Source: Diphasiastrum complanatum (taxonomy: Eukaryota > Streptophyta > Lycopodiopsida > Lycopodiales > Lycopodiaceae). From it: a stretch of DNA of 64,000 bases. Position numbers and translations under genes: made by a program. The notes under the pieces are model-generated. The model made no database searches, had not been told where the DNA came from, and saw only the letters and a list, made by a program, of their open reading frames with translations. The stretch is from contig CM055096.1 in assembly GCA_029204225.1 (NCBI GenBank), forward strand, positions 32,437,076-32,501,075. Reading direction: 5' to 3'. Below are positions 3,725 through 58,800 of the stretch, one piece after another (the stretch's first letter is position 1; every line of letters starts with the position of its first letter).

Positions 3725-5793
<2,069 letters not shown>

Positions 5794-20140: not shown

Positions 20141-20541
20141 ATGAGCTATGCCGCATTCAAAATGGTGCACTCTCCCACGGGAGTGGAGAACTGTGTGGCT
20201 GCTTTCCTCACCCACAGTGCCGCCCCCAGCGGCAGCAGCAACAACAGCATGATGCAAGTAGACCTTCCCTCCTCTCCGTCCGGCTTCCCAGAGCATAGCA
20301 GCGCTGCTGCTGGACAGTGGGGATTTTCCCCTCGTGTCAGGGACACCGGCTCAGGAGGTGAATTCTTGCCCAATCTGGTGGTTACCAAGGGAAATGTTCT
20401 GGAGGTGTACAGGCTGCGGCTGCAGACAGGGAAAGCAAGAAGCTCTAGAGGCTCTGAGACTGGTATGGCCTTAGGCGCAAAGCGTGAGGGTGACATAGCG
20501 GGCATAAGTTCTGCTTGGTTGGAGCTCATCTGTCATCACAG
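20141..20541 (+). CDS. CPSF160: CPSF160 exon 1 (start codon)
   Basis: The ATG at 20141 opens [18 protein letters not shown], the conserved plant CPSF160 start. It is followed by a Ser/Ala/Gly-rich variable insert (about residues 27-75), the conserved [18 protein letters not shown], and LELICHHR. The exon ends two bases into an Arg codon at a GTATCG donor (20542). The base composition is clearly richer in GC than the surrounding intergenic DNA. Confidence 0.93.
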
Positions 20542-29500: not shown

Positions 29501-31995
29501 GCTTAATTGGCAGCATCCGCCCTTCATAGATAGCGATGGCCTCCTTTCTTAATTGACCTCAATGTGAAACTTCTCCAAGTGCAGAACGATGGCCATCAGG
29601 CAGTGATGGTCTTTGGTCTATAAGCTCATACATTAATGTAATCGACTGTGGTGGATAGTGGTCATAAGGCAGCGATGGCCTTCTTTAGCACTTGACTCAT
29701 TTGGAAATGAGGATAAACTGCAGGCAGTAGCTTCACAAATGTGGCTTTCTGGCGACAATGTCTCTCCATGGAAATGGCCTTAGAGCAATGGCTCATATCT
29801 CATAATAACATGACTTCTCAAGAAGATACCCCACGTCCTATCCAGGTAGAGGAGAGGCATAAGGCCTTTCAGGCAGCCCGTAAGTCTGGCAGACGAGTCA
29901 TTTACCGAGATGGACGAGTGCGTTTTCTTGACAGCGCACCTAGCAGCTCCCAGTGCTAGGGATTTGGGGTCCCCGCGTTCGGGTGTGCCCCGGGGCCCCA
30001 TCCACACCATCTCCGGATTGGAGTATGGAACTGTGATGGTTTACACTCATCTTCCATTGCTGGCGATTTCATCGATTTCATCACTGACAGAGATTTACTG
30101 CTCTTTATGGAGACTCATGAGAGTCAGGAGAGAGGATTACCTATTTTTCCAGGATATAGATGGGGTTCCGTGTACAGACTTGAGACTAGATCAGCTAGCA
30201 GTTGTGGAGCCGGAGGTGTTGCATGTTTATACAGAGAGTCTCTTCATCCGAGCATCGAGTTCATCAGACACGACGAGCATGCACGATATATATGGATTCA
30301 TATTGCTGGGCAGGATATTGGTTTGGACAAGGACCTTTTTGTGGCGGCATGTTATTTTCCTCCAGAGTCTTCGTCCTTTGTTGAGGGCACAGGTTCACCC
30401 TACCTTGATTTATCGCCTGATATTGTCAGATTTGCAGAGCGGGGGCATATTCTCCTCACTGGGGATTTTAATGCCCGAACCTCTTCACGGCAGTCAGAGT
30501 TTTATGACATCACTGACCAGCTCCGCGTTCATGCCCTTGACAGCGATGACATGGGAGTTACCAGGATTTCAGAGGACAGCTTGGGACCTACTACCCCATA
30601 CGGTGAGCATTTGTTGCAGTTTGGAGAGGCCCATGAGTTAGCCATTTACAACGGCCTAACGTGTTGGCCAAAATCCGGCAGTTATACTTGTCACCCTCAC
30701 AGTGGTGGACATAGTGTTGTGGATTACCTCATGGGATCACCATCTTCCATACATCTCATCTCTGATTTTCATGTATCTCCCACCACTCTCTCTGATCACT
30801 CCTTTCTCTCCTTCGCTATCGGCCGCCTCCCACCTCCCCAGCCATCCTCACACCCCCTGCTTACACGGGCACCCAGGTATACATTCAGTTCTCTCTATAC
30901 ACCAGTCTACCAGGAGTTCCTAACCTCCTTGCTCCATTCCTTCCCTCACGATAGTATAGTCGAGACTCAAGCTGCCTTTCTTAGCACTTCTCTTCATACC
31001 GTTGCTTCCCTTGCTTTTCCATCCCCATAAAAGCATAGGCACCCGCTCCTCATCGATACGACCCACACACCCCCCGTGGTATGATGCTGAATGTCGCTCT
31101 CTTCATCAGCTTGTCACCCATGCCCGCACTCACGATCCTCATCTCCTCCACTCCGCTAGGCGCTCTTACCGTCGCACACTCCGCCGAAAAAAGCGTATCT
31201 ACGATGACTCCGAAGGAACGCATCTTGTTGATCTTCTCTTCAGTTCCTCTTCAGGCGCCTTTTGGCGTGAGTTTATCCCTCGTGCTCCACCACCCCTCCT
31301 GGATGACCTTCGCATATGGACCAATATGCTACCAAACTATATACCATACCCACTGACGCACCCATCTCTATCTCCCCACGCCCCTCTGAGTTCACCTTCT
31401 TCACATCTGACATGGTACTTACGGCCATCAAGAGAATGAAGTCCCATAAAGCAAGAGATATCGAAGACCTTAAATCTGAACTCCTAACCCATGCTTAATG
31501 ACTGTCAATAAAGAGCACGGCCGTGCGCTACTTTACTGGTTATTTGAGGTTGATCATCCCGATTCGTCATCCCTACCCTTGGCTGTATGGTCCAATGGAG
31601 GTGAGGATTCGACAAGAATTAAGCTAATGAGCCACTTTCGTGTAATATCTCTGTGCTTCTAAAAGGGGATCGTTAGAAATATCAGGTCTATGTCAATGAC
31701 GCATTATCATAATGTAGCAAAGAGAGTGTTCCAATCAATGCGTGTTGGCTTTCTTTCTTGATGTTCTGGACACTCTCTATTTGATACATTAACCATAGAT
31801 AATTGCTTGATTTACTTATTTCACAGAAGTTGCTCTAAGTCTGTTCTATCAAAGAAATGAAGCAAAGGCAAAAGCTAAAAAACGTTAAAAAAAAATGGTA
31901 AAAAAATGAAACCTACAAGTCTTATTTTTTTTTTTAGCGCACACACACACATTTCAAATTTGTTTCCCCCCCCTGCGCGCACTCTCTCTCGATCG

Positions 31996-35100: not shown

Positions 35101-38100
35101 TTTCCCAAGGCTCGATTTTTCCCAAGACTCAAAATTCTCGGAGACTCGAATTTTTCCTAGACTCGAATAGATGGCCACGTACATACACACACATACATCG
35201 GCCACCTGACCATCGACTTTCCTTTGGCCCAACGATGAAGGACCCTTTCCCGGACCATGGCCAACTATTCTGCGGTGAAGTTCATCCGTCAAAAGAATTG
35301 AAGTACCTTCAGACATGACGAAACTAGTAGAGACAATCAAACAACAAGCGACAGCTGATCTTATGCAGAAACTACCAAAAATTGTTCAACAGGCGATACA
35401 ACGATCCTTGGACGCTGTAATACCAACTCAACTCACAACTTGTAAGCCTTATGATTCACAAGTCAAATGTGCTTTCACGAAGACTCCTACAAAGAACACT
35501 GATAGAGGCAAGGCCAAGGCAGTTGATTACAACCCATTGCAGAGATCAACAACGAGTAGTCAACCCCTGAAGCCAACGCGTTCCAACAGCAAGCCGACCA
35601 CCACAATGCCAAATCCGGTTACATCAACGATCAAAGGGCCAAATCTAGGGAATCCAAGCCCGACACGGCCACCCATCCAGCAAGCATCAACATTTGAAGT
35701 ATCAAAACCTTGTACTCAAGCGGTACTCTTGACTGTCGAAGAAAGTCTTCAAGTTCAAGCATATCATGAACACATGGATCGATTAAGCAATCAATCAACC
35801 CTATCCTATCTGTCGTACCAATTGAGCGAACTTTCGACAATACCACCGATAACAATTGCACCATTCTATGAAGATCCATGCCAACAAGTGTTATCTTGGG
35901 ACCCGGTTTTCAATGACGACAACTATCCAATTGTCAAGGAACAAGGTTATCAAGAATGGCCGCCAGAATTTTATTGAAAATTGGGCAAGTCCGGGTTCTT
36001 GCGACACCATCCATCAATAAAGCATCAGGTTTTACGTAAGTGAACACTTATCTACGCTTTTCCTGAGGCAAAACAAAAATATATATCTATGCTCTCTACA
36101 ATTGTGACAATGCCATGGACTCATCAACAACAAAACGCTACCATCCCAAAGATTCCGTTACAAGCAGTCCCTTGGGACTGGCACCTGTTTGGTCGTGGGA
36201 GAATGTTGCCCGATTCTAGGAATGACATGGAATATTCTAAAAGTCGGCAAAAGGCTCCTATAGTAAACCCAAACGCTACATGAAGCCATCTTTACAAATT
36301 TAGATTAAGCAGACAATGAGATTGGATCTAGATTTTTTAATCACAATTATCTCAGATCAGATCTGCTAGATCTATTCCATTTTTCAAGAATCTGATTCTA
36401 TATCATGAAAAAGTTTTTGAGATTCGATCAATCGATACTTCTCAAAAATGATAAATCTCTCAGAATCCAATTCAAAATATATCAGATTTGATCCAGATTT
36501 TGACAGAGACTTGATCTGGAAAATTAGAAACTTAAAATAGGTCTGGCAAAGGTTCACTAGGCGAAGATTGGCTCGGCGAAGGTTCAATACTGCTATTTTT
36601 AGCAAAAAACTATTTGAACATTTTTTTTGATGATTTCTTGGGAAATAACCTTCGTCGATCTCTCAGGTGAAAGATCTGACACAGATACAATTATGGAAAA
36701 ACGGGCGAAGGTTAATGACACAAGAAAATACAGTTTTTGATGGTTGGCGAGGGTAAAATTCAAGATTTTCTATGATCTGATCAAGAAGAATCTTCGTCGT
36801 ACTAAAAAATAGTATTTTACTATAAATAGAATGTTCTGAAAACTCGACGAAGGTTCTGGGGAAGGATCAAGAGTAATACTGGTAATTTTGCAAAAGAGTG
36901 ACTTTTTTGGCAAAAATATGACAATATGACAACCGATCCTCTAAAACCCTTGTTATTTTTGGTATTATTCTTCGCCGATCTGGCAGTAGATAGATTTGAA
37001 TCACACCTGTGCACAGTGAATCAGGCGAAGGTTCTTCTTTTGTATTTTTAGGGTTTTGATGATTTTTTGGTGTTTTTTGACGGTTTTTCTGATGTTTCTG
37101 GAAATCTGCTGGGAATTAATCTTCGCCCTTCAAATTGAAGGTTTTGTGAACAAAACTGAAGGTGTCTACAACTCGGTGAAGGTTTACTAAAAGAGAGTAA
37201 AAAGTTCTAAGCTCTGATGATGCTTTTTGCCTCTTTTTGACCAAATCTGGCAGAATTTGACCGATTTTTGTTATTTTTTCCGATATCTCAGATCCAAATG
37301 GATCTTAAGATTGGTGATCTGAATAGATTTCCTTGTTTTAACAATCAGATTAGATTGCTAGCGATACACACGATATTACACAGTGTGAGCGAGTTGCCTA
37401 ATTTACTTGAGATAGTTATTGATCTACCTGAGCTCGTCATTGTATCCCATAGTGAGTCAGAGTCACATATACAGGTTCCTACTGATGCTAATTCACATAT
37501 ATAGGTTGCAACTGATATGGTCCTTGATACTGATATAGCATGCTATGATACTATTGATGATGCCGTTGCATGCTTTGATGGTGCTACCGATGTTGCATGC
37601 TATGATATTGTTCCATGCTTTGATACTGATATAGTATGCCTTGCTACTATTGCCGATGTTGCATGCTTTGATATTGTTGTTGAGTACTTTGATGCTACTC
37701 ATGTTCTTGAGCGCCATGCTATAGATGTTGTCGCCTATGCTCCTTATTTCGATATTACTCATGGGTCTACGGTTGCTCTTTCAGATGCTTTGGCTACTCC
37801 AGTAGATCTCCATATGGCATATGGTTATACATTTCATGATGGTCCTATTGTATACTCACTAGCTTATTTTGCTGATACCTGTCTAGATGGGTATGCGGTT
37901 CTTCTAGATGCATATTTAGGCCAGAACTTATCAATTGATGCTTCTGTTATTATGCCTACGTATGTTGTTCCATTTGTGGATCATATTATTCTAGATGCGG
38001 GACGAGAGTATATTTCTTTAGTGGATACAGGTAGTACACATTCATTTACTAGCAGTTACATTTCCACCAAGATTCGTGCTACACTTGTTCCTGCTTCCCA

Positions 38101-41100
38101 ACCTCTCAGTGTTGAGGTTGCTCGTTCCCATTTTTTTCCCAGTTCTCAGATGTTTCAGGGATTGGATTATCGCATTGGTGATTTTTCTGGTCAGGCAGAT
38201 TTCTACATCATTCCTCTGGAGCGCTATGACATTATTTTTGGTACAGACTAGTTCTCTTCACTTGGTACTGTTGCTGTGGAATAATACCCTGAAGCCAATA
38301 TTGCCAAGTAATCAATAAGGCCCAAATAACACCTCTAGAAGCCAATGTTGCCGAACACATGCTATGGTCTCCCACAAACTTCCTTTGGCCCACAAGAAAA
38401 CGATTCATTATAGAAGCGAAATTAGTGTTCAATCTATGTCGATGATCGATTGTGACCTTATGAACCAATGATTGACCTCTTTATCATTTAAGATGCCTTT
38501 CAAAACCAAACGACAATATTTACTTTTAATTTTAAACAATTAACATTTGTGACATGGAATCTTTAATTTTGCATTTAGATGATTCAAGTGGATACATGTA
38601 TGCAAATAGTGCTAAGAATCACCTTTTGTTGCCCAATTGTACATATCCTTAAAAAATCATGTATATATTCTTTTTGTTAAGTGAACTATCATTTATGTGA
38701 AATCATTGGTGGTGCTAAACTTGTGCAGACTTAATGGAAATGTTGAAAGCATGGCAGTTCTATCACATGGTCGTGATGGTCGTCTACGAAGGGATGCAAT
38801 CATGCTTACTTTTCGTGATGCGAAGATTAGCGTTCTTGACTTTGATGAAGCAAAACACAGCTTAAGGACGAGGTATTTGAAATTTCACATTGTTTTTTGG
38901 CCTTTTAGCTAATTGCATTTTGAACATGTTCTTCTTGTGCAACTCTAATGTATAGACTATATTGTCCACTTATGCAAACCAATTTTTGGAAATACTCACT
39001 ATCAGAAAATGGAACCATTGAAGACATTTGTTGCTGTTTGCTACTAGATTTGTTTTTTCCTTTCTTTTGAAGTTCATACATGTTCATTGCATTTTTGCCC
39101 CTGGTTTATCTCACATTGTCAAACGTACTCTTATGGATGGCCCATGCCCTCTCCATTTATGCCTCATCATTGTTTTTTCAAGTGCAATTTGAAAAGAAAT
39201 GCATTGTCAAGTGAAAGATCAAAAGTTTGGTTCTATAAGAGATGTTTAGTATTGGATTGTTTGTAACTTGAGTTGTTAAAGGTTTATGTTGAGCATGGTT
39301 GAAAATCATCTGGTCTGAGTGCGGTCTTTAAGAGATATTGATACCTAACTGCATTTTTATATTCATTTTTTTGGTCTTTGTAATCCATGTGCAGTTTAAA
39401 TTCGTTTAAAATTGGCTTACTTTGTTATACTTGTATTGCAGTTCTTTGCATTATTTTGAGGGACCTGATTTTCAACATCTAAAAAGGGGAAGGGAAAAGT
39501 TTCCTAGGGGGCCTTTGGTTCGTTCCGATCCTCATGGAAGGTGTGCTGGGGTATTGCTGTATGGTTGCCAACTGGTGTTAATGAAAGCTGCTCAGGTACT
39601 CCGTGCTTGTTGATCTCTACTTGTTAGAATTAACGTTTTACATTGTTACCCCTAATGTTCTCATGTAGGGTTAGGAGGGTTAATTAGGACTACTGGGCCA
39701 TGCCTCTTCGCTGCCTATAGGGTGATTTTCAGATTTGAATTTCTGGAATCAGATCACTGGACTGCTGTTGGAAGCAGCTCGCTGGCTGTTTACAGGTTAA
39801 TCGCCGCTGGATCAGACCTACAGTGTTGATCGCTGCCTACAGATGAATCTCTGTCTACACATCTGTTGAATTGCTGAGTTGAAAGCAGATCAAAAAGGCT
39901 GTTGAAATCAGACCTATAGTTGTTGTTGGAAACAGTTCGCTGGCTGGAATTGGTCCCGCTGGCTGGAATTAGTCAGACTGCAGATTGCTGCTGTTAGAAC
40001 TGCAGACCTACTCTCTGCTGACAATTCACTGTCTCCTGTAGTACCTGTTCGCTGGAAACAGGCAGATCGCTGGAGAAAACAGTGCAGAGGAGCTGATGCA
40101 ACTTGATTCGTGGAGATCAACATAAAGGTGTCGCATAGCTTTCAGGAGTTTGAGTGAGTCAATGCATCTTATGAAGGTGCAACTAGCTGATGTGAACGGA
40201 GCCATCATTGCTGGATATTGTTCATGAAAGGAGCCAACAGGGCGAAGTGATTGTTTGTTGTGGTTGTCAAGTAATTCTTGGATACCATCCAAGTCAGTTG
40301 ATTGTTCATGTGGTGGTACAAAGTGAGATCAATTCTTCTAGGAAGATCTGTTTTTCCAAGTTCTTGGATCTATCCAAATTCATGTTCTGTCATGTGGTAG
40401 ATTTTGAAGCTAAGGTTGTTGATTAGCCATTGAAAATCAACAGTACAGGTTATTCTTTAGCCTCAAGAAAAACAACAGGGTTCAATATTGACAGGTTATT
40501 GATTAGTCTTAGAAAATGAAGTCTTCTTAAGTGAAGCAGGTTTCTTCAAGGAAGATGGACGTACACTAGTTGGGAAGTTTGCAAAGACATAGTGTCAGAA
40601 TAAATAGATGTCATGATGAGATGCTTTCTAAGTTGCAAATTTGTTTGAAGCAAGTGACTCTATGTGTGATAGAGGTAGGAGATTCCATGGAAAAGATAGT
40701 GTCAAGTACTTTGTGTGAGAAAGTATTTGAGGGGGAGTATCAGCTACTTTGTGTGGGGAAGTATTGTATACATTTTATCTTTCTATTGGAGATGCTCTAG
40801 TACTTGCATATTTGGTTTGGTTCATGGATGACAGGAAAGCCTTTGATTCTGTCCGACGCTCCTTACTTATCCAGAGACTCCGAGACTTGGGTTTCTCTAC
40901 AGATATTATCCTAGCTGTCATGGCTCTCTATGAGAGGGTTTTGGGTTGCTTCCGTCATGGTAGTGGCATCTCTGAGCAGATCTGGAGTACTATTGGGGTT
41001 AAGCAGGGATGCTCTCTCTCACCAGTTCTCTTTGGATTTATATATTGACGAGCTAGAGCAGGTCATCTCTCAGTGTGGTGGGGATGGTTGTCGGCTTGGG

Positions 41101-44100
41101 GACATTCTGATTGCCATCCTTCTCTATGCGGATGATGTGGTACTAGTCTCCCGTACCAGAGAGATCCGGAGTACTATTGGAGTTAAGCAGGGGTGCTCTC
41201 TTTCACCAGTTCTCTTTGGACTATACATTGATGGGTTGGAGCAGGTCATCTCTCAGTGGGTGGGGACTATTGTAGGCTTGGTGACATTCTGATCGTCATC
41301 CTTTTCTATGCGGATGATGTGGTAGTCTCTCATACCAGAGAGGGATTACAGAGATAGTTGGATTGCTTACACACCTTTTGTACTCAATGGGGTTTAGGGG
41401 TGAACATCTCTGGCATGCCCATGACTGGTCTCGGGTAGCGTGTCCACGCTAGGGACCGGTAGACCAACAACCCGTAAGTTAATTGTGACTATAAGGGAAT
41501 TGGGGCCCCTATGAGTACATGGTCATAATTAATGGTTGTAGGCCTAAACACATGGTGGTGGAGTTGGTATGGGTCTATTAGTGAGTCATTAGGGAACTGG
41601 ATGACGTGGCCCAGATAGGCTGCAGAGGTGTCCAGTGAGGTGTCACAAGTGCACTACTAGTGGTGCATGGGCCTTGGAGGGTATAAGTATACCTGCTGGG
41701 CTCTCACTAGTGTATGCTTGATTTTGTGATTAGTAGCTACATGCTGCTGGTGTGACTCCTCTTTCCATGACTCTGATTGATCCATAGCTTGGGGGCTAGA
41801 TCCATACAATCTAGGTTTGGTTGGGTTGGTTTATCCACCACCTGTTCCCTTGTGTTGTTGCTTTGTATGGTATGCTTAGGCTAGAATCCTGTTGTGAGGA
41901 CTTTATACTCTCGAAGACCAAAATCATGGTCTTTAATACCTCTCGGGCCTTCATGCAGCGCCATGAGCTTACCTTTGATGGACAGCCCCTAGAGGTGGTT
42001 TCTTCATACACTTACCTGGGTGTGCTCTTTTCTAGTCCTACCCATATATTATGCAACTAGAGGGAGATATCACTGCCTATTCCAGGACATGCCTACTACA
42101 CTCAGATCACTGATCACATATGAGGACCCTCGCTGTGTTGAACTTATGCTACGAGAGATGGTCTTGCTGCGACAGGATATGTACCAGTTAGCTCACCAGC
42201 CACATCCTAGCTCTCAGGCTCAGATTACGTCTTTCTTCACCAGGAGACGGCCACGACGAGACCTCGGGTCTGATGACGACACACCCCCTCACAGATATCA
42301 GAGACAGTGTATCACCCACAGTCATGTGGCAGCTCGCACTTCCCGCCTTGTCACAAGAGCACAGTTTTCACCCTCTTAGACGACGTCAGCGACGGTCCAT
42401 ATTACCTCCTGCTACAGCTCGTATCACATCCTTTTCCAGCAACAGTGCTAGATGATATGACTCTATTCCTAGTAGCTATTTTGCTCCCACTCATGGACAG
42501 CTTGCAGTTTGTAGTTTACAGTTATATTATTCATCTTTTATGCATAGTTTTTTCTTGGAGACGTTTATATACGCTCCCATGGTTACCACATACTTGACAT
42601 GTACTCTTTTGGTCTTATATGCCTTTTGGCATGGAAAAGATATTAATAAAGCTCTCTCTCTCTCTCTCTCTCTATGGGGGCCTGTTACGAGCACGTGACC
42701 AGTGCCGAACCCTAGAGAACACAGGAGGTCAGTTACCACAGTCAGGGTCGTGTCCAGCGTGGCCCCCAGTTGGGTCCCGACGTGCAGTCGGCCACGTCAG
42801 TGCCACGTGGCCGACACTTGGCAATATGCATGCTACTAGTCCTCACACTGGGCTAGGAGGGGCTTACTCTATATCAGGGAGTAGGCAAGGTTGGGTGGAT
42901 TAGTTAGTGTTTGCCCTATTGTGGTGTTAGGATCTATTACACTGGTATTAGAGCCATCTCCATCTTTGGGAGCTAAGTAGCAGCAGTAGAGAAAGCTATC
43001 AGAAGATAGGAAATATTTCTCAGATTCTCAGAAAAGTATAGAGGAGGAGAATCGCTGTAGGAACAGCTTTCAAACCCTTGAATTTTGCTGGGAATTTACA
43101 GTAGTAGGAAGTACAATTCTTTGTACAGGTAAATCGCTGGAAAGGCAGCTATCCATCTCTGATTTCAGAGATTTATTTTCTGATTTCTGAGCGGGTTTGA
43201 GACAGCAGAATGGGAGCAGATCCATCGCTGTAAAATTAGCCTTCACTTCTGATTTTCGTATGAAAGTTCGGGTACATCAGAGCGAGTTCTAACCTGAAAT
43301 TTAGTAGCACGGCCAGCGCTGGACAGGGAAGAGAAAAAGTGAAGTTTCATCCCTGAGTTTTGTAAATTTCAGAAGTCTGGGCATCAAACTTTCTTGCCAC
43401 AGACCAGCGACCAACGAGCTGAGGCTAAATCAGAATTTCAAACGGGTTTTGGGCCTCAAATTTCAGAAATCTTGGCCAGACAGAGTGCTGTCAGATCAGC
43501 GAGGGTAGGCAGCTAGAAACCTCAGAAAGTTTTGTACTTTTTTTGGTCCTTTGCCTGGTTTTTTGGAGCCCCAGGTCTGCAATCAGATCAGCGAGCAAGT
43601 TTACTCAGGAAACCGGAAATTCTTGTACCATATTGGAGCCACAAACTGGGATTTTCCGGGACAGCAGGTCTGAAATTTTGGGCAGAAGAGCTGAGAGGGT
43701 TCCTCTTCGTATTTTCTTTGGAAGTACAGTCCTCGGAAACAGCTAAGTCTTCTTTCCCTCTTTGTACAGTTATAACTTAGTCTTTTCGACTTTTTTTGAA
43801 AGGAAACGTCAGGCAATCTTTTTCTATCTCTGAAAATGACCACTTCTCCGGGACCTGATCAACCCCTGACAAGAGGCATTGATGAATTAGAAACGGAATT
43901 CCTGAGGTTCAGTAAAGGGAAAGAACCAATGGAAGTTGAAGAACATGAACAATTCGCCGAAGAACTCGACGAATTGGTTACCACGGAGCAGTTTCTCAAC
44001 TTGGTAACAGAAGTGGATGAACTGAAGTCGGCATTAACCAATTTCAAGTCCAGTGTGGACGACTCGTTCGCTGAACTCAAAGGCTTGATTTTGAGTTCCG

Positions 44101-47100
44101 CGAAAGGAAGCCTTCCCTCCACTTCTCAGTTGTCCCCTTCTCCACTTCCATCAGTTTCGGGTGAGCCTATGCGGTCTCACCCCAGTTTCTTTAAAGACTT
44201 AAAGCCTCCTACTTTTATAGGGGAAGAGAAGGATAGAAACGTAGATATTCTACAAACCTTCCTCAACAAATGGAAGAACATTCATGCTTTTAAACAGACC
44301 CCTGACCATTTGCAAGCTATCGAGGCCAGTCTTTCCTTAGGGCCCATGGCCTATAAGTGGTGGTTAAATCTCCAGGAGACTGGGCAGACTCCTCGATCAT
44401 GGAAGGCCTTTGAAGAAGCCTTCCTAAGAGAATTTCTACCTGAAAATGAACTTGATAGAGCCTGGGAAGCCTGGGAGAAAACAGTAATGGACAAGTCCCT
44501 AATCCAATATATCTCGCAGTATCGAGAGGCAATTTTAAAAATTAAAAATATGGATGATTATCAGAAAATCAGGGGATTCCAGAGTTGGCCCATTCCTCAT
44601 CGCCAGTGGACAGATATTTCTATGGACTTTATCCTTCGTCTTCCTCATACCCGCCATGGTCATGACTCTTGTATGGTGGTGGTAGATCGGTTCTCGAAAC
44701 AGGCACACTTTATACCGGTCCGTAGTACTATTACAGCTGAGCAGTGCGCACGTCTTTTTTTATCAGATATTTTTCGCCTGCATGGTATGCCACGTATTAT
44801 CCTATCTGATCGGGATAGTAAGTTTACATCTACGTTCTGGACATAGCTTATGCGTATTTTGGATGTACAACTTTTGATGGGTACTGCTTATCATTCTACT
44901 GTTGATGGGCAGACTGAGGTCCTTAATCGGATCCTTGAGGATTACCTTCGACATTTTGTTTCTCCTTTCGAGAAGGATTGGGACCAGCATTTATGTTTGG
45001 CAGAGTATAGCTATAATAGCTCTGTTAGTACCAGCACTGGAGTTTCACCTTTCTTATTGGCTCATGGGTATGCTCCACTTTTGCCAGGGGTGCCTCTTCC
45101 TCCTGATGATACACCAGTTACCATTGTTTATTTTTTATCCGGTGCTCGTGAGCTTATTGCTAGGGCTACTACTCACTTACAGCATGTTCAGCAGCGCTAT
45201 CAGACTTCTGTTGATCGTCATCGCCGTCATGTTGAGTTTCAGGTTGGTGATATGGTTTACCTCCGGTTACGCTTTGCACGTCATCACTTTGTTCAGGGTC
45301 ACGCTTCTACTGAGAAGCTTGCACCGCGCTATTATGGGCCTTACTGTATCTTGGATCGCCTCAGCCCTGTTACATACTGGTTACAGTTGCCTGATTCTAC
45401 ACGAGCTTGTGATATCTTTCATGTTAGCCTGTTACGAGCTGCCATTGAGGATGATGCTCCTCGCGATCTCACATTTCCTACAGAGCCAGAGCTGTTCCCT
45501 TTTTTGCCAGCCGCCATCCATCAGGTTCGCCTTTAGTACAGTCGACGTCGCAGGCAGGTTCAGTTTTTAGTACAGTGGGATGGTCGTCCTCTTGAGGAGG
45601 CCACTTGGGAGCCTATTGATGTGTTTTATCATACACCATTATTGGCAGATCAGGCTCGAGCCCTCATGGCTTTAGTTCTCTCCTCTACTACAGATGTCAT
45701 TGTAAATGTTCCCTCTGCTTCATGATTCGGCTAGCTATGACTATTCTTTATTGTCGTATTTGCTTAGTACTTGCTTTACACAATTATGATGCTTTTGGGG
45801 TATCTGTTGTGATGACTTATGTCCTCTCCATCAGTATTTCCATTAGTTCGTGATTTTTCAATATTTAGCATGCTTACATTATTGTTTTAGATAGTCATTA
45901 TGCTTGCTAGCCGGTGGAGGGCTTTGTTTTTCTGCAGGGGAGAGTTATGGACTTGGCTCATTACATTCGCCGCGTCCATTCTTTTAATGTTATTATGCAT
46001 AAGCAGGCCTAAGGGCCCTTTTTATTCATATACTGGCCTTGGGCCCTATTTGGTTATATTTTAGGACTTGGTCACATTGATTTGGAGTGGGGGTCCTCCT
46101 ATTGGGAGGGCGCACTATTTTCCCTCCAAATCCTTTTCCCTCCCTTTTTTTGAATCATCCATTTGATTCAGGGAGAGGGTATAAGTAGGGTAGCATTGTA
46201 TTCCTTTATTCAGTTTATGATGATTGCTCCTCTTTAGCCTCCTTAAGCATTCTCTTCCTGCTTTCTACCTTAAGTCCTGCTTTCTAGCATAGCTAGTGAA
46301 TCTTAGCTTGTAACTGTTTGGGTTAGAGGTATTCAGAATTCCCAAGATGCTGTTGGAGATTTAAGAAGTTCCTGGAAGAGAATCTTCAGCTTCACAGCAA
46401 AGGTATGGAAACTGCTTGGCGGCCTAAGAAGGATCTTGATACTCTTGTCATACGCTTCACCTCAGTGTCCCACCGTCGTGAAGTGTTGGGACAAAGATCG
46501 AAGCTGCGGGATACCAAAGTATACTTGGACGAAGACCTTAAGGCTTACTGTCATCCAGGTGCGAGAACGAAAAAAGGCAAGACAAGAAGCTGACAACTGA
46601 AAAGTGGCTTATCTATCGTGATGGCATTATCAGATTTGTAGTCGTAAACTTGTTGCCATTAACGAGAGTTTGAATTCTGAGATAGAATCAGAGTTAGAGA
46701 AACGAAGAGATGCCTAGTTGAACTTTTTTAGTGGCCTTTGTATCATATAATCTTGGCTATAAAATTCGCTTCTTAGTTAGCTATTTTGTTTTAGTTAAGT
46801 TGCTTGACGATATCGATTTTTCTAGGTTCCATCTTATCTGGTGTTTTGTTTGGCCTTATATGGCTTATGGCATGGAAAAGACGTTAATAACTCTTTCTTT
46901 CTTTCTCTCTCTCTCTCTCATGATGGTTCTCTAGATGAGCAGGCCACCTTCCTTTCCTGAACTCTCCATATTGCTACCTCTCTCTCCGTCCCCTCTAGAC
47001 GTTTCTGTCATAAACCCATCTCATCGCGTTCGTTGCCTATGGTATGATTGTGAGTGTCATCACCTTCATTTACGACTACAAATCTGATAATGCCATTACG

Positions 47101-50100
47101 ATCCGCTTCTCTTGCATACCAGTCGTCACTCCTATCACCATGCACTCCATCGTAAGCTCCTCTTTGGGAGCTTTTTGGTGTGAGTTCATTCCACGTGCTG
47201 CTCCACCCATCTTGTCAGACTTTCGGACTTGGACCGATTATGCCACCACTCTTTATACCATAGCTGTTGACACTCCCATCTCCATTTCTCCTCGTCCCTC
47301 TGAGTTTTCATTTTTTACCTCTAAAATGGTCCTAGCGGCCATTAAGAGATTAAAATCCCACTGCACTCCTAATATCGAGGATCTTGAATCTGAGTATGCT
47401 ATTGATACACTTTCTCCCATCTTGGCCACATTACTTAGCCGAGCCATTGTATATGGTTTCCCCCATCTCGATGTACTAACATCATGCATCCCATCCACAA
47501 AAGTGGTGATTCCATGAAACTTGATAACTACCGTACTATCATAATTGGTCATGTGATTGCGAAGCTGTATGGCACGATTTTATAGTCCGCTGTTAGTTCT
47601 GAGGCGGAATCTAGGAGGCTATTTGCCATATATGGGTCAAGCCGGTTTTAGGGCTGATCATTCTACCACAGATTATATCCTTACTTTCAAGGCTATCATT
47701 GAGGAGGCCAAGCATAGACGTGAGAGGGTCTTCTGCTGTTTGTGGATTTCCGGAGAGCCTTTGACTCTGTTCCACGCTCTTGGTTATCCAGAGGATCCGA
47801 GACCTGGGCTTTTCTACAAATGCAATGCTTGCTATCATGGCTTTTATATGAGAGAGTATTGGGTTGTTTCAGATGACTTGGGTATCTTCGAGCAGATTTT
47901 GAGTACCATTGGGGTGAAACATGGGTTATCGCTCAATGTGCTGGTGCTGGTTGCAGACTTGGGGACATCTTGATTGCTATCTTATTATATGTAGATGATG
48001 TGGTTTGGGTTTCACCAACCAAAGAGGGACTTCAGAGGCAATTACGTAGTCTCCATACCTTGTGCACCATTGGGGTTTGAAGGTTAACATCTTGAAGACC
48101 AAAATTATGGTCTTCAACATTTCTAGGGCTTTAATGCAACGTTAGGAACTTATATTTGACGGCCAGCCACTGGAAGTAGTATCATCCTACACCTATGTGG
48201 GGGTTCTTTTTTCCGGACCTATCTTATGTATGAGGTGAGTAGGTGTTGCTAGACTCGGGAAAGGATATTCTTCCCTTGTCCAGCTACAGAGGTTCTGCTT
48301 CATGAGATTTTTTTTGGATGCCCTAAGTAAATGTCGTCTTTTTGATACTATTGTGACTCCCACGGCCCCGTATGCAGCAAAGACTTGGTGTATTGGTATT
48401 GCTTCCTCAGATTTCTCTCGCCTGCAGGTTACCATGTTATCACATATGATCCGAGCTAAGTCCTCAGTTTGGCACAAATCATCCTTGCCGAGTTTGCAGT
48501 CACACCAGTCCAGCTTGCTGCCATCTTTCAGCTCATTACTTATATTAAGCGAGTTATGGAGTTCCCAGTTACAGAGCAGTGGTACTCTCCATTGGCACTT
48601 ATATCTTCACAACACCTTCACTCTGAGGGATATCAGCTCTCATGGTATTCTCAATGTTCGCGCATACTTGATACATTCGACATTTTCATCTTGCATCTCC
48701 CTACTGGTTCTCACCAGTATATTTGCCGGTTCCTTTATTGAGCTTATATTCAGGACACTTCGCATGGTGAGTTGGGGGTCAAACCCGACTTTCATCGGAC
48801 TCATTTCTTGGAGTTGGATACTGCTGGTCTGCCGATTCTACCTTGATATCTGGACTATGGTCTTTCGCATGGTCTTAGATTCCTATTGGGCCAGCTTAGA
48901 GTATTGTCACACCAGCTTGTAGTTGAGATGGGCCGTTTTCAAGGTATCCCTCGAGAGGAAAGGCTTTGCTAGGTTTGTCCTTTGTGAGAGGTCAAGACCG
49001 AGGACCACTTTCTTTTCAGATGTCCTATGTACTATGAAATCAGAGGGAGATTCTTTTGTCTCTTTAGAGATTCCCCAGTCACATTACGTTCCTACTTCAA
49101 AGAGCCTAGGCCATACACAACAACATCATACATCACAGCTCCAGATTACCTCTTTCTTCTCTGGGAGAAGATCTCGTGATGTCCTTGAGTCCGAGATGAT
49201 GCATTTTATTATGATGGACAACAGTTGGAGATTGTTACCTCTTACACCTATCTAGGTGTATTATTCACCGGCCCCTTACTCACTTTTCGCTCTACTGCTC
49301 TATCTCGCCTGCGTAAGGGGCATGCTGCCTTGGTACATATGGAGAGAGTGTGTACTACTTACTATATCCATGATCTTGCTACTAGAGACCACCTTTTCTC
49401 TACAGTGGTCTCACCAGTGGCTATGCACTCGGCCTAGGGATATCTCAGGGTACTTGGAGAGACATCACTTGCCTGCAGGTCACCATGTTAGGAAGGACGA
49501 TCCGTGCAAAGCCATCAGTTCCTCATGAGATTCTTTTAGCGGAGTTTGCCTCACTCCCCATGGTGGTTGAGGCTTTGTTTCAGATTGTTACCTTTCTACA
49601 TCGCATTGAGACCATGGATTCTTGCAGATACGTGATGGCAACGCTTACTTCTTCTCAGACTATAGCTGGACAGCAGGCTAGATCTTCTTGGTACAATGAT
49701 GTGATGGCTTTCTTCCAGTCATGGGGCTTCTCGATGTTGGATCTCCCACAAGGCACTCATGCATTTATCAGACATAAGCTATATCGTAGATATTGTCACA
49801 TAGTATGGGATCGTCCTGATCATGGGAGAGTCAAGCTTACCTTTTATGGCGCACATATCACGCAGAGACAGTTTGGGACTTCCTATTAGACCTTTATATC
49901 TATAGAGCATCGGATATGCCAGGTATGCACATTGGGTGTAGTGGAGGATGAGTTCCATTTTATCTTCATTTGCCCTACATACTTTGAGATACGAGGTCGA
50001 TATCATTGTTTATATCGAGACACCCCTATTACTCTCAGTACCTTTTTGGAGTATCAGGATCCCAGATGTGTCGGCCTTTTACTACGAGAGATGCTTATGT

Positions 50101-52741
50101 TGAGAGCCTCTTTGCTACCATCGGAGAGTATTACTGATTCGGGCCAGCATCTCATTACTAGCTTCTTTCAGAAGCGGGAGCGCGATGACCTATCAGATGA
50201 TGAGACAGTCATAACGGTGAGGGCGAAGGCCCAGCGTGCCCAGCCACCACCTCTTGTCAGATCTACACGCGCCTCCAGAGCTACCAGAGCTCCTCGACCA
50301 TAGATCACATCTTCTATGAGTATCAGACGTTTTTTTCGAGATTGATATTTTACTCTTCCTTTTCCTTTTCTCAGCAGAGCAGGCGGTTAAGCTCTTGCAC
50401 CTGTACCCTCTTCAGAGTTGGAGGTTAAGCTCTTGTATATTTGCTCTTATATGCTTTTTATGACTCTATGTTAGATGTGTCTTTATCTAACTAGAGAGAG
50501 TTCTATATTGTCTTTTCCTCTTAGACTAGTGATTTTTTTTTTATGTTGTCCGACGTGGACAGTGATGCTACGAGATATGTACTTATTTATTTTGTCTTAT
50601 GTGCCCTTGGGCACTCAACAGACATTAATACATTTCTTTCTTTCTCTCGCTCTCTCTCTTGTTTATATGCATTGTTTTCTTTCTTGGAGACATTTATATA
50701 CGCTCCCATGGTTACCACATGCTTGACATGTACTCTTATTGGTTATATATGCCTTTTGGCATGGAAAAGACATTAATAAAGCTTTCTTTATTTCTTTCTT
50801 TCTTTCTCTCGTTACCGTCATACTTGGATGCATTTTTGTCTTATATGCATTATGGCATGGAAAAGACGTTAATCAAGCTTTATTCCTTCTCTCTCTCTCT
50901 CTTCAAAGACACTAAGATCTTCATGGATGATGATCTTACCTATATCCAAGTTGAAGAGCGACGCCAAGCATTCCAAACCGCCAAAGCTACCGGAAGATGG
51001 GTGATCTATTGTCATGGAGTTGTTCGGTACCTTGATGGTACTGCATCCGGAAACAACCTATAGGAAATTGGGGTCCTCGGGCATGGGAGCATCCCGGGCC
51101 CTTCCACACCACCTGCATCTTGGAGTATGGAACTGTAATGGCATACACTCATCATCCACGGGGGGCTGGAGTTCTTACCGATTTCATCACAGACAGAGAT
51201 ATACTGTTTTTTATGGAGACACATGAGAGCCTAGAGCGAGGACTACCTACATTTGCAGGCTACAGTTTATAGGACAGAGACTCGATCAGCAAGTGGCAGA
51301 GGTTCGGGTGGAGTAGAATGTCTTTATCGAGAGTCACTACAGCTAGCTATAGAGTTTATCCAACATGATTTACATGCACGATACATATGGATTCATATCA
51401 CTGGATGAGCTATTGGTTTGGATAGGGATCTCTTCATTGCTGCCTGTTTGTTCCCTCCAGAGTCCTCCTCTGCGGACGGATCTGCCTCTCCTTACACTGA
51501 TCTCTCAGCAGACATTGTCAGATTTACAAATCGGGGTTATGTCCTTCTCACGGGCGACTTTATGCAAGGACTGCTACCAGACAGGTGGATTTTCATGACA
51601 TTGATGTCCTATTATGTACATGAGCTATTGACTGCGAGGGTATTGGTATGACCATGACCTCAGAGGACATGATGGGCCCTATTACGAGCTATGACACAGT
51701 GTTGTTGACTATCTCATGGGGTCACCAGCTTTTATCCCGCTCATATAAGATTTCCACATTCTTCCCACCACCCTCTTCGATCACTCATTTCTATCTTTCA
51801 GTATAGGCTCCATCATGACTTGTCAACCACTGACTATTCCATTCATCTCTCGTGCACCCACGTACACTTTTGATTATCCCTACATTAAGACATACAGGAG
51901 GCCGTCAACTCATTTTTGTCATTTTCCACACCACACCCCGTTGGAAACACATGCTATCTTCCTTACCATTTGACTCCATACTGCTGCATCACTTTCCTTT
52001 CCCTCCAAACCACATCGGCTCCCACCCACTTTGCCACACCCTATCCGACCTCCCTGGTTTGACGTCGAATGTCGTTTTCTTCATCTCCAAGTCACCCAGG
52101 CTAGATTGCATAACACACATCTTCTTCCTACAGCCCGTCGATCTTTCCACCATGCCCTCTGTTGGAAGAAACGGGTGTATGAAACTCAAAAAGGGAAAAG
52201 CTTAGTCGATTCCCTTTGCAGTTCCTCCACCGGTGCTTTTTGGAGGGAATTCATTCCCCGTACCCCACCTCCTCTTCTCACTGACGTTTATACCTGGACA
52301 GTTTTGGAGTCGTTTATACGCTCCAAGGTTACCAAATACTTGACATGTATTTCCTTAGTCTTATATGCCTTTTGGCATGGAAAAGACATTAATAAAGTTC
52401 TCTCTCTCTCTCTCATCACAGCTTCTATGGGTATCAGACGTTTTTTCCGAGATTGACATTTTATTCTTCCTTTTTACTATCCTCAGCAGAGCAGGCGGTT
52501 AAGCTCTAGCACTTGTACCCTCTTCAGAGCTAGAGGTTAAGCTCTTATATGCTTTTTACGATTCTATGTTTGATGTGTCTTCTGACTAGCTAGAGAGATT
52601 TCTATATTGTTTTTTCCACTTAGACTAGCGATTTTTATGTTGTCCGACATGGACAGTGCTCCTACGAGATGTGTATTTAATTCTTCTGTCTTATGTGCCC
52701 TTGGGCATCCAACAGACATTAATGTAATTTCTTCTTCTTCT

Positions 52742-52825
<84 letters not shown>

Positions 52826-55800
52826 CATGCGGAGACAGAGGAGTTATATGCTATGGGACAGGCAGGTTTTAGAGCAGGCTATTCCACAGCGGACCAAATA
52901 TTCATACTGAGGTGTATTATTGAGGCGGCGAAGTTCAGGAAACAGAGAGTCTATTGCTGCTTTGTGGACTTCCGCAAAGCATATGATTCGGTTCCGAGAC
53001 ACTTGCTGCTCCAGCGTTTGGCATCCCTTGGTTTCTCACAGGAAGTCTGCTATCATCACATTATACGAGAGTTTTGGCCCGATTCCGTGATGGAGATGGA
53101 TGGTCTTCATATATTCGTAGTACGGTCGGAGTAAAGCAGGGGTGCCCCTTATCACCCACCCTATTTGCTCTATACATTGACGACCTTGAGTGGATCATTC
53201 GGGAAGAAGGTGGAGATGGCTGTCCTCTAGCAGATCTTATTATCCCTATCCTTCTTTATGCAGATGATGTGGTTCTACTCTCTAGTTCAGCTGCAGAACT
53301 TCAGCGACGTCTGGATGCCTTGTATACTTTTTGTCAGATATGGGTGCTGATGGTGAACATTGGTAAGACTAAGGTTATGGTGTTTAACACCAACGCAGCA
53401 TATGAGAGACACTATGTTCTATTTTGATGGACAACTTCTAGAGATAGTGGCGTCTTACACATACCTAGGTATTCTCTTCTCTGGTCCATTGCTTTCTTTT
53501 AGATCAGCTGCATTGGCTAGGCTCCGCAAGGGGCACTCTGCTCTTGTTCAGATGGAGAGGTTTTCTACCACTTATTACGTGCATGACCCGGACACACGTT
53601 ATCGCCTCTTTTCTTCGACTGTTTCTCTGTATTCAGCAGAGACATGGTGCCCAGGTTTATCTAGAGACACTTGGAGTGACATCTCGCGTTTGCAGATTCA
53701 CATGCTTAGCCAGATGATTCGGGCCAAGCAGTCGGTTCCTCATGAGATTATTTTGGCGGAGTTTGCTTCTCCTCCACTGATTGTAGAGGCTATTTTCAGG
53801 ATCATCACGTTCATTCACAGAGTCTCAGAGCTTGATTCTTCCAGATACGTGGTAGTGGCTTTTACATCCTCTCGCACTTTAGCCGGGCAGCGTGCTAAGT
53901 CTTCATGGTTTCAGTATGCTTCGGACTTTCTGCATAGCTGGGGATCATCTATGTCTGACCTCCCAAATGGGACTCATGCGTTCATTCGCTGACAGATCTA
54001 CAGAGCATACATACATACTGTTTGGTCTCACCTGGATCCCTCACGGGTTAAGCTTTAGTTCTACCGCATTCACTTGCTTCACCTGGATGCTTTAGGGCTT
54101 CCCGTTAGACCGAGTTATCTCTCTCATCAGCTTCTGGTCTCTTCTCATCAGCTAGCTATTGAGACCGGTAGATACACAGACACGCCACGACCATTACGGA
54201 TCTGTTAGTGCTGTACTCTACATGAGGTTGAGGATGAGTTTCACTTTATTTTCATATGTCCAACTTACTATGAGATCAGAGGCAGATACCACTGTCTCTA
54301 TCGAGACACTCCACTCACGCTTGGTTCCTTCTTTGCCTATCCAAATGTGAGATGTGCTGGTTTACTTTTGCGAGAGCTGTTCTCTTTGAGATCTTCACTT
54401 TTGTCAGATGATTAGGATGTTGACCGCAGCCAGCCACATATTACACTTTTCTTTCAGAAAAGAGCTAGGGAGGATACTTCGATAGTGAGATTGACATTCC
54501 AGCTCGTCGACCGAAGCTCCAGCGTCTTCCTCGACCATCCAGAGTTCGTCACCAGAGGCCACCAGGTGCCTCACACCAGATCACACAGTTTTTCTCTCTC
54601 AGTTAGTGAGTTTTATTCCTCCGCGTAGCTGGTGGTTAAGCTACTGCTTTTGTACCCTCACCATAGTTGGAGGTTAAGCTTTGGTTTTTATTTCCAATTT
54701 ATCTCTGTTTTTGGTTTTAGCTGATAGAAATAAGTCCGACATGGACACTGCCCCTTTTTGATGTACTTTTTCTTTGTCTTATGTGCCCAAGGGCACTCTA
54801 CAGACATTAATATATTCTATTCTTCTCTCTCTCTCTCTCTACTTATACCAAGCATATATTTACAGAGTCCAGGCACTTCTAGATGTAGAGGGGAGATATA
54901 CACAAAGCATTCCCTTCTTCACACTATCTTCATGATCAGGGCTACAGGCTGTCATGGTTTTCTCAGGCAGCTGGGTTCCCAGTCTTGCCACATTACTTGG
55001 ACTTAGGATTATCACATAGCCTCAGATTCACATTGGGCCAGCTCCGCGTATCGTCACATTAGTTGGCTATTGAGAACGGGAGGTTCCATGGTATTCCAAG
55101 AGAGGAGCGGATCTGCCATTTATACTCTTTGAGTGAGGTGAAGTTTGAGGAGCATGTTATCTTTAGGTGCCCTGTATACTATGAGATTCGAGGGAGATAC
55201 TATTGCTTGTTTCGAGACACCCCCACCACACTATGATCACTCATAGCATATGAGGACTCCTGTTGTGTTGCACTTAAGGTACGAGAGATGTTCCTACTAC
55301 AACGAGATGTATGTTAGATAGCTCAGCAAAGTCATCTTACCTCATCCTTAGATTACCTCTTTCTTTACCACGACGGAACCCAGAGTGTGGTGATGATGAT
55401 GAGGATGACAATGTACCTATTCATAAAGATCAAAGGCAACGCACCACTCTTCGCAGATCGAGTTATTCGACCTGTCATGCGGAGACACACATCTCATCCT
55501 CCTAGATGACGTCAGCAGCTACCAGAGTACCTCATATTGCAATTCATAGTGCATCTTTTTATTATAGCTATCAGTAGCAGGACATGATGACAGTGATATA
55601 CCTCATTTTTGACATTTAGTAGCACTTATGCTCCAATATATCTCGTCTCATTTATTTCAGTTAGTATGTAGATATGTTGTTTCTTTACCCCTCATTGCAA
55701 AGTACATGTGATGAATTGATGTGATGTGGTTGACAAGATGTCTTTTCTTTGCATGCAATTTGATTTTTCCGCAAGATCTAAATAGTACATCCATCACTTC

Positions 55801-58800
55801 ATGCATGTAAGTAAAATTCCCTACTTCTAACTACATGCATGTATTCTTCCCGTTGACGTCATTGCATGTAATGGTTAATGCTTACTTTTAGTACTTTTGA
55901 CTTCATAAGTCCAATCTCACTTATTTGGTTCACACAATAAGTGAATCGTACATGGAGGACGACATTTTATCATGGGTGAGAATGACTTTCATGGCCCTAT
56001 CCTCTGCTTTATGAAACTATTTTGTTGATAGAGATTGTGTCGACCTTGAAGCATCGCCATTATCTCATTTTCTTAGATCTCATTGAGGAGTTCAATCGAT
56101 GTTTATGCAATATTGAAAGAATCAAGGTGCCCTTGAGTGGATAGAACTATCTTCTCTTGGATGACACTCACACATTTCATGCAGTAAGGATTTTTTTTGA
56201 AACTTCACATGGTGCTCTTTCATAGATTTCATAGGAAGGTCAATAATAAGCAATACTTGTTGCTGTGATTCGTAATACCATGTTTTGATCATATTGGCTT
56301 GTTCAATGGCACACATCTCTTTGCCATTTGTACTTGAGCTTGGAACATGCACATCATGTACTTGGCATGTGATTATTTAACCTTTGCTTACATGTGAAAA
56401 TGCATGTAGTGGACAAGGCTCTCTTATTTTGATGGTTGTTACAAATTATGCAATTGTTGTTGCATTGATGAGTTTAATGTGTCCCACTATGAACTAGTTT
56501 TGTTATTGCTTTTTGTTTGTCTCTTTTTGTTTTTGTATGTGTGGCTAACACTATGATGTGCATCATTACAGGTAGGATATGATTTGGGAGAGGAAGATGA
56601 AAGTACTGCCACTAGCGTTATTGCATATGCACATATTGAGTTTTCTTATGTGGTGAGCCTTCGTGATATGGAAATGAAGCACATAAAAGACTTTGTCTTT
56701 TTGCATGGCAAGTTTCCTGAACTAAGTTCCAATTTTCTTCTATGCTTTCGCAATCCAGTCAGATTGAAAGAGAGTAAACAATTGTTGAGTGAGTTTTCAT
56801 GTAAATTTCAAACGAGCAATAAGTTCATGCATGCAAATTTAAGACCTTGTATTGTGCTCAATGTCTTATTTGGGTTCTTAGTGAGTCATGCGAGGCTTTT
56901 CTATCAAAATTTATGGTGCTTTTGTGTTGGGTATAAATATTAAATAAATATTTCAGGTTTTTAAGTTTGCAATGTTCTGCCCTTGATTAACTACGAATAA
57001 TCAATTTCTAGCCTTAGGTTAGGGGAAGCTCATTTAGGCACCACATGGTGGTACATTTAGTGTTAGTTAGAGCCTAGCCTTATCGAGCTTCCCCTAATTC
57101 TAGTATTGATAGTAACTAATTGGATAGGGATGTAACATGCGACTCCTAAATTGCCTCGAATATTGTTATGCTCTATTCAAGGATTTTGAATTTTGTTGTA
57201 TCCTGTGAAGGACACAAGGTTGTGGATCTGAATGTTGAGGTACTTAAATTTGACTGACCCGAAGTTGTTGGCTTAGAAGCCATTTGCCAAGAGACTCATT
57301 TAAGCTAAGCTCTTTAGGTGAAGCCAGTGCAGAATTGGGTTTTCAATTGGAGAAAGCATGCAAAGCTAAGAACATACTATCATGTAGATCATCTTATTGA
57401 CATTAATTGAAGAATCATAGAACCATATATTGTACAAATGTATGAAAACTAATGTGGACGTATGTTTGATGTCATTTAGCCTACGCTTGGGCACTGAAGC
57501 AGTGAATAGGGATATCCTAGCATTCGGTCCGTGTTGTGCATGTTGAAGTTCATGTTGAGAGTGTGTGGGTAGAATCTATTATTTGAACATTGTATGCATC
57601 ATTTTTAATGTTGTACTATCCTATTAGACACACAATTTAGAGGAATCATTGTCCAAATTGTGGCTAGCTTGTCTTTGCTAACATTCTCTATTTTTGGTGG
57701 TGCATTTCCAACTAGCTATGCTTTATAGCCATAATGGAATGGTAGTACGTGTGTGGTACTCCAGAAAAACTATCATTCCAAGACCTACGTAAGAGCCCAA
57801 AAAAGGATTGAAGCTAATGCCACAAAATTGGAAATGGGAAAGAGTGTCGGTTGAATGGAATGCAAGATGAAAAGACCTTAAAAAATCACTTAACCAAGCT
57901 TAAAAATAAGGAGCAACTAGCAGTTGTAGGAGAGAGAATAGATGATAAAGACTTGGTCCTTATCACAGTATTACTCTTAACAATTTTGGTCCATAATATC
58001 ATGTTTTGTTGCTAGTTTCATTATAAGGACTAGCCCAATCTTATTTGAAGAGTTAAGGCTTTTTGTAGTAGGACAAGCAAAGAAGACGACATTTTACAGG
58101 TATAAATTTTTAACATCCATTTGCAGCCAAGCGGATGATTTCTAAAAAAGAGTGGTTTACTAAGTTTGAAGATGATAGGGATAATCAAGTCGTGGAGCTT
58201 GGTGATGACTTTACATAACAAGGTATAGGATCAGGGCATCATAGTTATCAGGGTGCCTATTGGTATTTGGAATTAGTTTGAAATGTGCGCAATGTTGCGG
58301 ACTATATGTTGTGCTATATTGGTAGTCAATTGGTGCCATTGTTGACCAAGATTTGAAGTGTTATGGATTTTACTGCACTTGGACCCATGGTGTCATTCAT
58401 AATTTTATGATGGAACATTATGTGCAGTCATATTCTTTTTGGTACCTTCTAGAGAATGTATTATTGAATGTGGCATCATGTTGTGCTTTAGCCCTATTGT
58501 CTTGACATCTTGCGAGTTTATGTATCCTGACCTTCATAGCACCACAAGGGACTGCTTCATTTGAGCTTAAATAGTGGCCTGCTGACTCCTGGACTTGATT
58601 TCTTACTGCATTTTCGTCACGTTACTAGATGAAGGCTACACAATGCGAATTCATACTCACCAAATTGTAGCAAGGACATACAGACAAGAGGTTTCCACTA
58701 TGACGGGTCCAGGAAGTGTGGTCGAGTTAATTCTTATGCAGAACTGTTATCCAGCAGCTCCTTAGCCAAGGGCCTTTTGACACATACAAAAAATGACTGC

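Follow-up and report, generated by a model that had tools for sequence, protein, structure and literature searches.

How does a family of mobile elements come to lie head to tail, each copy starting where the simple-repeat tail of another copy ends? The question is raised by a stretch of 64,000 nucleotides from the lycopod Diphasiastrum complanatum (GCA_029204225.1, contig CM055096.1; C5:32,437,076-32,501,075 in the assembly searched here), which we call the window and number from its first letter. It holds an array of fragments of a long interspersed nuclear element (LINE), all on one strand. A preliminary description of this DNA suggested that the family integrates into (CT)n tracts, including its own tails. 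That proposal is supported by an excess of CT at the 5' flanks of other copies, by LINE matches on the same strand in their 3' flanks, and by empty sites in a host repeat. Sequence comparison makes it very probable that a lineage of LINEs (non-LTR retrotransposons) with an apurinic-type endonuclease uses (CT)n microsatellites as integration sites and that its sense strand comes to lie on the CT strand. In our sample the CT tract exists before insertion, in the clearest cases CT lies on both sides of the insert, and the body of an element is separated from the target CT by a hairpin and a short tail that differs between subfamilies.

Results

Seven head-to-tail junctions in the window

We read the junction region (46,500-55,500) and compared it with itself by blastn. 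Seven LINE tails end there, at 46,919, 50,660, 50,810, 50,903, 52,414, 52,821 and 54,840, and all seven are abutted by LINE homology on the same strand, in alignments that begin before, at, or at most 9 bp after the end of the tail; the 9-bp case is the fragment at 50,904, whose match begins at 50,913. At the first junction, a short DNA alignment scores slightly above shuffled sequences (40 vs 35.5) and a longer alignment is clear. The pieces that follow the seven tails are, in order, the linker, 3' untranslated region (UTR), 3' UTR, open reading frame 1 (ORF1), 3' UTR, reverse transcriptase (RT) and C-terminal region, so that the preliminary description had both the junctions and the truncated parts right.

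On the forward strand, the array opens with a fragment from the C-terminal region of ORF1 to an A2-type 3' end (46,500-46,919; tail about 46,891-46,919, 5' limit approximate), followed by one from the endonuclease-RT linker to a B-type 3' end (46,920-50,660; tail about 50,629-50,660). Two pieces of 3' UTR only come next, one A1 (50,661-50,810) and one A2 (50,811-50,903; tail with (CT)7), and then a fragment made up of the ORF1 C-terminus, endonuclease, linker and A1 3' UTR (50,904-52,414; tail (CT)7). The piece at 52,415-52,821 is again 3' UTR only, of B type, with a tail of TTC repeats and then (CT)38. It is followed by a fragment from the RT to a B-type 3' end (52,822-54,840), whose tail is two TATTC units and then (CT)8, and by a C-terminal fragment that starts at this CT tail and has no recognised 3' end (54,841-55,570; right limit approximate). 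Upstream of the array, the self-comparison places a separate copy running from the RT to the 3' UTR, with an A1-type 3' end (40,822-42,673, forward strand; 5' boundary approximate) and a tail that ends in (CT)11; this copy is the closest match in the window of the fragments at 50,661 and 52,304. Seven of the 11 CT tracts of at least five units in the window are LINE tails; of the remaining four, two are the parts of a single, interrupted run.

The 3' ends in the array are of at least two hairpin types, and pairwise identity is about 60-89%. Since 5' truncation points, hairpin types, identities and closest-match partners differ, the array is not one duplicated block. A second contig, C961 (locus L003), carries the 52,822-54,840 stretch at 99.9% identity, and all three junctions looked at there (52,414, 52,821 and 54,840) recur, with 8, 13 and 8 CT units vs 7, 38 and 8 in the window; this recurrence with other CT lengths argues against simple assembly error there. 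The window alone gives the order of neighbours along the DNA, not which neighbour is older.

CT tracts at the flanks of copies elsewhere in the genome

The host assembly (1.74 Gb in 5,176 contigs, with large contigs of 45-102 Mb among those sampled) was searched with 52,822-54,840 (best 40 of 7,326 candidates scored), with an A1 3' UTR (best 40 of 1,785) and with a near-full-length copy (best 34 of 8,340). We left out the near-identical duplicates L019, L021 and L022, retained the near-identical pairs L032/L033 and L036/L049, and did not count L002 and L004-L009, which overlap other loci. This gave 37 copy starts, 17 from alignment among loci and 20 from search coordinates. Where the chain ran through an upstream LINE (L012, L015, L016, L018, L027, L028 and L029), the start of the last copy was used; the L015 start was placed by hand at the CT end, and the L016 start was shifted by 3 bp.

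A run of (CT)5 or more ends no more than 20 bp upstream of 13 of the 37 starts, or of 12 of 36 without the hand-placed L015. At random points in the same LINE-rich sequence the frequency is 1.6% for CT (binomial P = 2.5e-13 for 12 of 36) and 0.09% for GA. This control is generous to chance, since it asks for (CT)5 within 32 bp, so that the tract may end up to about 22 bp away, and also includes points that fall within a tract. No copy start (0 of 37) has (GA)5 or more within 20 bp. Comparing the flanks of other copies with random points, which covers on a sample much of the check proposed in the preliminary description, therefore yields a large and strand-specific (CT)n excess.

The CT in front of L013, L017, L023 and L057 is in non-LINE genomic DNA, as is that of L069, a weaker case having only (CT)5. 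Two very short copies make the pattern plain. One, in L015, is a 3' end of about 75 bp between (TC)19 and (CT)9, and the flank next to its CT is single-copy DNA in a genome search; the other, in L020, is a 3' end of about 36 bp within a CT/CA stretch. At L013, an interrupted simple-repeat stretch (CT, CCTAAACCC, CA) comes directly after the element's own tail.

We then consider what follows the copies. The 3' flanks of 20 young A1 copies (96-97% identity), taken from the 39 listed places outside the window, and of 15 B copies were compared with a LINE library (blastn, E 1e-6 or better). The best and first LINE match is on the same strand in 13 of the 35 flanks, mostly starting at the CT, and on the opposite strand in none of the 35. 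The matched LINE part starts 29-101 bp past the CT in L037, L038, L071 and L080, in the first two after an additional AT or CA repeat, and the 3' flanks of L039, L077 and L084 are also LINE by eye. (CT)4 or more follows the hairpin core in 65 of 74 3' ends (34 of 39 and 31 of 35; longest run 0-100 units). Across 17 loci, 15 secondary 3' ends were recognised, and 14 of them have the same orientation as the main copy.

Empty and filled sites in a host repeat

On the 5' side of the L023 insert lies a host repeat that contains a (CT)n tract; the best 40 of its 804 candidate copies were scored. We read 18 other copies, which are paralogous sites and not alleles, across the position of the insert. 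Nine of the 18 are empty and have (CT)n: seven by two anchors, with the CT and little host sequence between them (L088, L092, L093, L095, L098, L101 and L102), and two by eye, with CT running into the repeat (L097 and L100). Four of the 18 have LINE sequence at the (CT)n; the LINE starts at the CT in L085, and the blastn match starts 10 and 17 bp after it in L091 and L090, respectively. In the fourth, L087, both anchors are present, and between the two stretches of host repeat lie (CT)19, then about 36 bp of a LINE 3' end, then (CT)9; this LINE end is shorter than the blastn threshold allows and was identified visually by its core and tail. Because paralogous copies show both an empty (CT)n and a LINE at it, the CT belongs to the host repeat and precedes the insertions. 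Together with the 13 of 37 5' flanks, these sites indicate insertion into a pre-existing simple repeat, the hallmark of microsatellite-specific LINEs. We also observe that the host repeat at L023:5600-6390 has received LINEs several times.

The elements carry their own 3' hairpin and tail

Pfam places RVT_1 (PF00078) in 52,826-53,131 and 53,086-53,424, and also in L015 (E 9.7e-33), the reverse transcriptase domain expected of a LINE. Exo_endo_phos (PF03372; E 3.2e-10), an apurinic/apyrimidinic endonuclease (APE)-type domain, is found in a related copy in the window (29,960-31,027); Pfam gives no match in the 155-aa endonuclease piece of L015. The differing 5' starts and the shared 3' hairpin amount to the variable 5' truncation and common 3' end of a LINE. 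The closest PDB match of one RT piece is an R2 protein (E 1.1e-8; human L1, E 1.4e-7). Despite this match, we rejected an R2-type LINE, with its restriction-like endonuclease, as an APE-type domain is present.

All eight 3' ends in the window (those of the seven tails and of the separate copy ending at 42,673) consist of a short hairpin, then ATTAAT or GTTAAT, then the tail; an example of the hairpin core, ending in ATTAAT, lies at 54,776-54,811 on the forward strand. Subfamilies can be told apart by their hairpin sequence and by how the tail begins, in most cases with CTTT, TTC, TATTC or AATTCT repeats; the tail usually continues as pure CT. In a MAFFT alignment of 13 representative sequences, with L001 left one base off, pairing holds in 90.8% of pair cells, a value reached by 1 of 500 shuffles, and both sides have changed in 10 cells, a number reached by 0 of 500. 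Weighing against the hairpin, and to that extent against our reading, 29 of 500 shuffles reach the four pairs with double changes, further pair types are not above shuffles (367 of 500 reach them), shifting the pairing by +2 columns gives a covariation score almost as good, and support from the eight window sequences alone is weak. Rfam, at gathering thresholds, has no match in 38,000-57,000. A recognised 3' stem-loop followed by a repeat tail is a feature of UnaL2-like LINEs, which resemble the present elements in having a conserved 3' hairpin and then a short repeated tail; to our knowledge, UnaL2-like LINEs do not target a microsatellite.

The motif that the elements carry as their own tail is short and varies by subfamily, (TATTC)n, (CTTT)n and (AATTCT)n being examples, and on this ground the long CT run looks like target DNA that persists on either side of the insert rather than a tail newly written. 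The idea that CT is the element's tail thus calls for one correction: the CT that follows the tail does not seem to be written anew each time.

The 5' parts upstream of the shared body differ among L015, L018, L028 and L029, and some begin directly after a CT tail; exchange of promoters is a possible explanation. No relative was found in a plasmid search or in two viral-contig scans. A single scan of bacterial and archaeal genomes gave one relative (L001:1216-3500, in CAKZGI010000406.1, labelled as a metagenome-assembled genome of the cyanobacterium Trichormus), with a similar 3' hairpin and a TTTC tail by eye, probably as plant contamination of that genome.

Other features of the window

Within the fragment at 50,904-52,414, the linker passes directly into the 3' UTR at about 52.30 kb with no CT, as in an internally deleted copy. 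The fragment at 46,500-46,919 passes from ORF1 to the 3' end without ORF2 and may be a non-autonomous, ORF1-only derivative. An inverted 34-bp match (46,615-46,648 vs 47,069-47,102; 97% identity) spans the first junction; it exceeds the surrounding LINE copies in likeness and may be a templated repair patch. The copy at 40.8 kb has a tandem duplication of about 182 bp inside the RT (40,978-41,342). A (CT)n run of 134 bp (5450-5583) lies within an open reading frame (4960-5793) that resembles Copia RNase H by eye, and the frame at 20,105-20,569 is presumably CPSF160-like.

Discussion

Alternative origins of the array

A number of observations weigh against integration into CT. Both samples were selected: the LINE copies are best-scoring candidates, and the 18 host-repeat copies were mostly chosen since their match reached the CT site, so neither is random. 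There is no CT within 20 bp at 24 of the 37 5' ends; in this group, boundaries are approximate in L018, L053, L054 and L056, the starts of L012, L058 and L064 lie directly at a LINE 3' end, or at an own tail, that has no CT, and CT lies 94-461 bp upstream in L028, L029, L055, L059 and L066. Targeting of CT may be less than strict: 12 of the 37 starts have neither CT nor a same-strand LINE 3' end nearby (L010, L020, L024, L025, L026, L027, L051, L052, L062, L063, L065 and L067); site deletion, template switching or later rearrangement are possible causes. In L027, a LINE 3' end on the opposite strand lies about 81 bp upstream of the start, and the single opposite-strand case among the 15 secondary 3' ends is also in this locus; the 5' flank of the copy at 40.8 kb in the window is not CT. 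Nine of the 74 3' ends lack (CT)4: those of L012, L029, L047 and L072, two in L018, the TTC-rich ends of L032 and L033, and the tail at 50,810, which is mostly CTTT with CTCTC at its end and is a caveat on the junction set. Among the host-repeat copies, L096 has a LINE away from the CT, and L086, L089, L094 and L099 could be placed in neither the empty nor the filled class.

Some of these observations would suit template jumping, in which the reverse transcriptase, on leaving a first LINE RNA, moves on to the 3' end of a second, such that a concatemer arises in a single integration. Same-strand, head-to-tail joins of truncated copies are expected from this mechanism too, and the joins without CT (L012, L058, L064 and L072), which speak against CT integration, agree with a switch made when the enzyme reaches the 5' end of one RNA and resumes at the 3' end of the next. 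We nonetheless consider template jumping unlikely as the source of the arrays, given that it leaves unexplained the LINEs in genomic CT with no LINE upstream (L013, L017, L023, L057 and the short L015 copy), the comparison of empty and filled host-repeat sites, and the long CT that separates copies even though they end in another, short motif of their own. Slightly less likely still is that the element itself makes the CT, encoded or slipped in reverse transcription as in the RTE elements of Lepidoptera, and that CT tails are hit since they are common or open. The pyrimidine-rich tails of the subfamilies and the frequency of (CT)4 at 3' ends agree with this, as do the 24 5' ends away from CT; against it stand the CT at the nine empty paralogous sites, the CT 5' of copies in non-LINE DNA together with the lack of GA near any 5' end, and L013, whose own tail runs straight into the interrupted simple repeat. 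The preliminary description had named segmental duplication, rearrangement or misassembly among the findings that would overturn its proposal. Near-identical duplicates do exist in the genome sample (L018/L019, L020/L021/L022, L032/L033 and L036/L049), but segmental duplication is already contradicted as a general explanation because the 5' ends differ, and members of the array differ as well in subfamily and in identity. Moreover, three junctions recur in C961, and junctions of the same kind, with different partners, are present on several chromosomes. That duplication of one block, unequal crossing-over or misassembly made the array is therefore highly improbable.

A model for self-seeded arrays

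Integration into pre-existing CT suggests the following model. The endonuclease would nick the GA strand of a (CT)n tract, and the freed GA 3' end would pair with the pyrimidine-rich tail of the LINE RNA and prime reverse transcription, with the 3' hairpin presumably recognised by the reverse transcriptase. CT would be retained on both sides by splitting or by duplicating the tract; the unit counts on the two sides, 19 and 9 in L087 and 34 and 32 in L017, are compatible with either. With the tract split or duplicated, not consumed, most copies would be followed by CT able to take the next copy in the same orientation, and the outcome would be head-to-tail arrays of variously 5'-truncated copies, as in the window. 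The earlier suggestion that each insertion makes a fresh landing site holds in a modified form: since insertion seems not to use up the CT, the site would be renewed by retention and not newly created, which need not bring a net gain of CT microsatellites.

Relation to other LINEs

Microsatellite-specific LINEs are known in animals. Kojima and Fujiwara reportedly described in 2004 two of the Tx1 clade, Kibi on TC repeats and Koshi on TTC repeats. These share with the present family an apurinic-type endonuclease and a simple-repeat target, which for Kibi would be the same dinucleotide; they differ in being animal elements. We know of no self-seeded arrays of Kibi or Koshi.

Tx1 and R1 are the clades named as target-specific APE-type groups (PMC4640811), and the only ones so named in PMC13295347. 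The (TG)n-specific Togen families of fish likewise insert into a dinucleotide microsatellite; they are related to NeSL, which is listed among the clades with a restriction-like endonuclease (PMC4640811), whereas the present family has an APE-type Exo_endo_phos domain. Zepp of Coccomyxa, also a LINE of the green lineage, forms clusters of nested copies (PMC3446292), in contrast to the present copies, which target (CT)n and lie at many places of a chromosome. We compared the arrangement only, and a Zepp-like organisation, with one nested cluster per chromosome, was rejected for the present family, which has several separate copies on one and the same chromosome, as on C5 and on C3. RTE elements that spread microsatellites in Lepidoptera also have 3' ends of LINE fragments beside simple repeats; there, the repeat is between target-site duplications and was absent before insertion (PMC2887409), whereas here it is pre-existing.

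Our searches of open-licence papers found no land-plant LINE with a CT target. Our data support the view that the window contains microsatellite-targeting LINEs with unusually clear self-seeded arrays, new for land plants in the literature searched. We put forward, as a tentative proposal that we hold at somewhat less than even chances, that strand-specific targeting of (CT)n may have arisen in a land-plant LINE lineage that lies outside the two APE clades reported to include site-specific elements, with its own insertions as a main landing site, LINE-LINE junctions as a usual end state of a copy and orientation-locked arrays genome-wide.

Because the target of this plant LINE is defined, very short and abundant, target choice by an APE-type endonuclease becomes directly testable. 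Integration of this kind accounts for a class of oriented LINE arrays and for the fact that CT microsatellites in such a genome can share a flank, which bears on the annotation of repeats and the design of markers. It is also an example of how an element can preserve its landing sites, in that insertion leaves the site usable.

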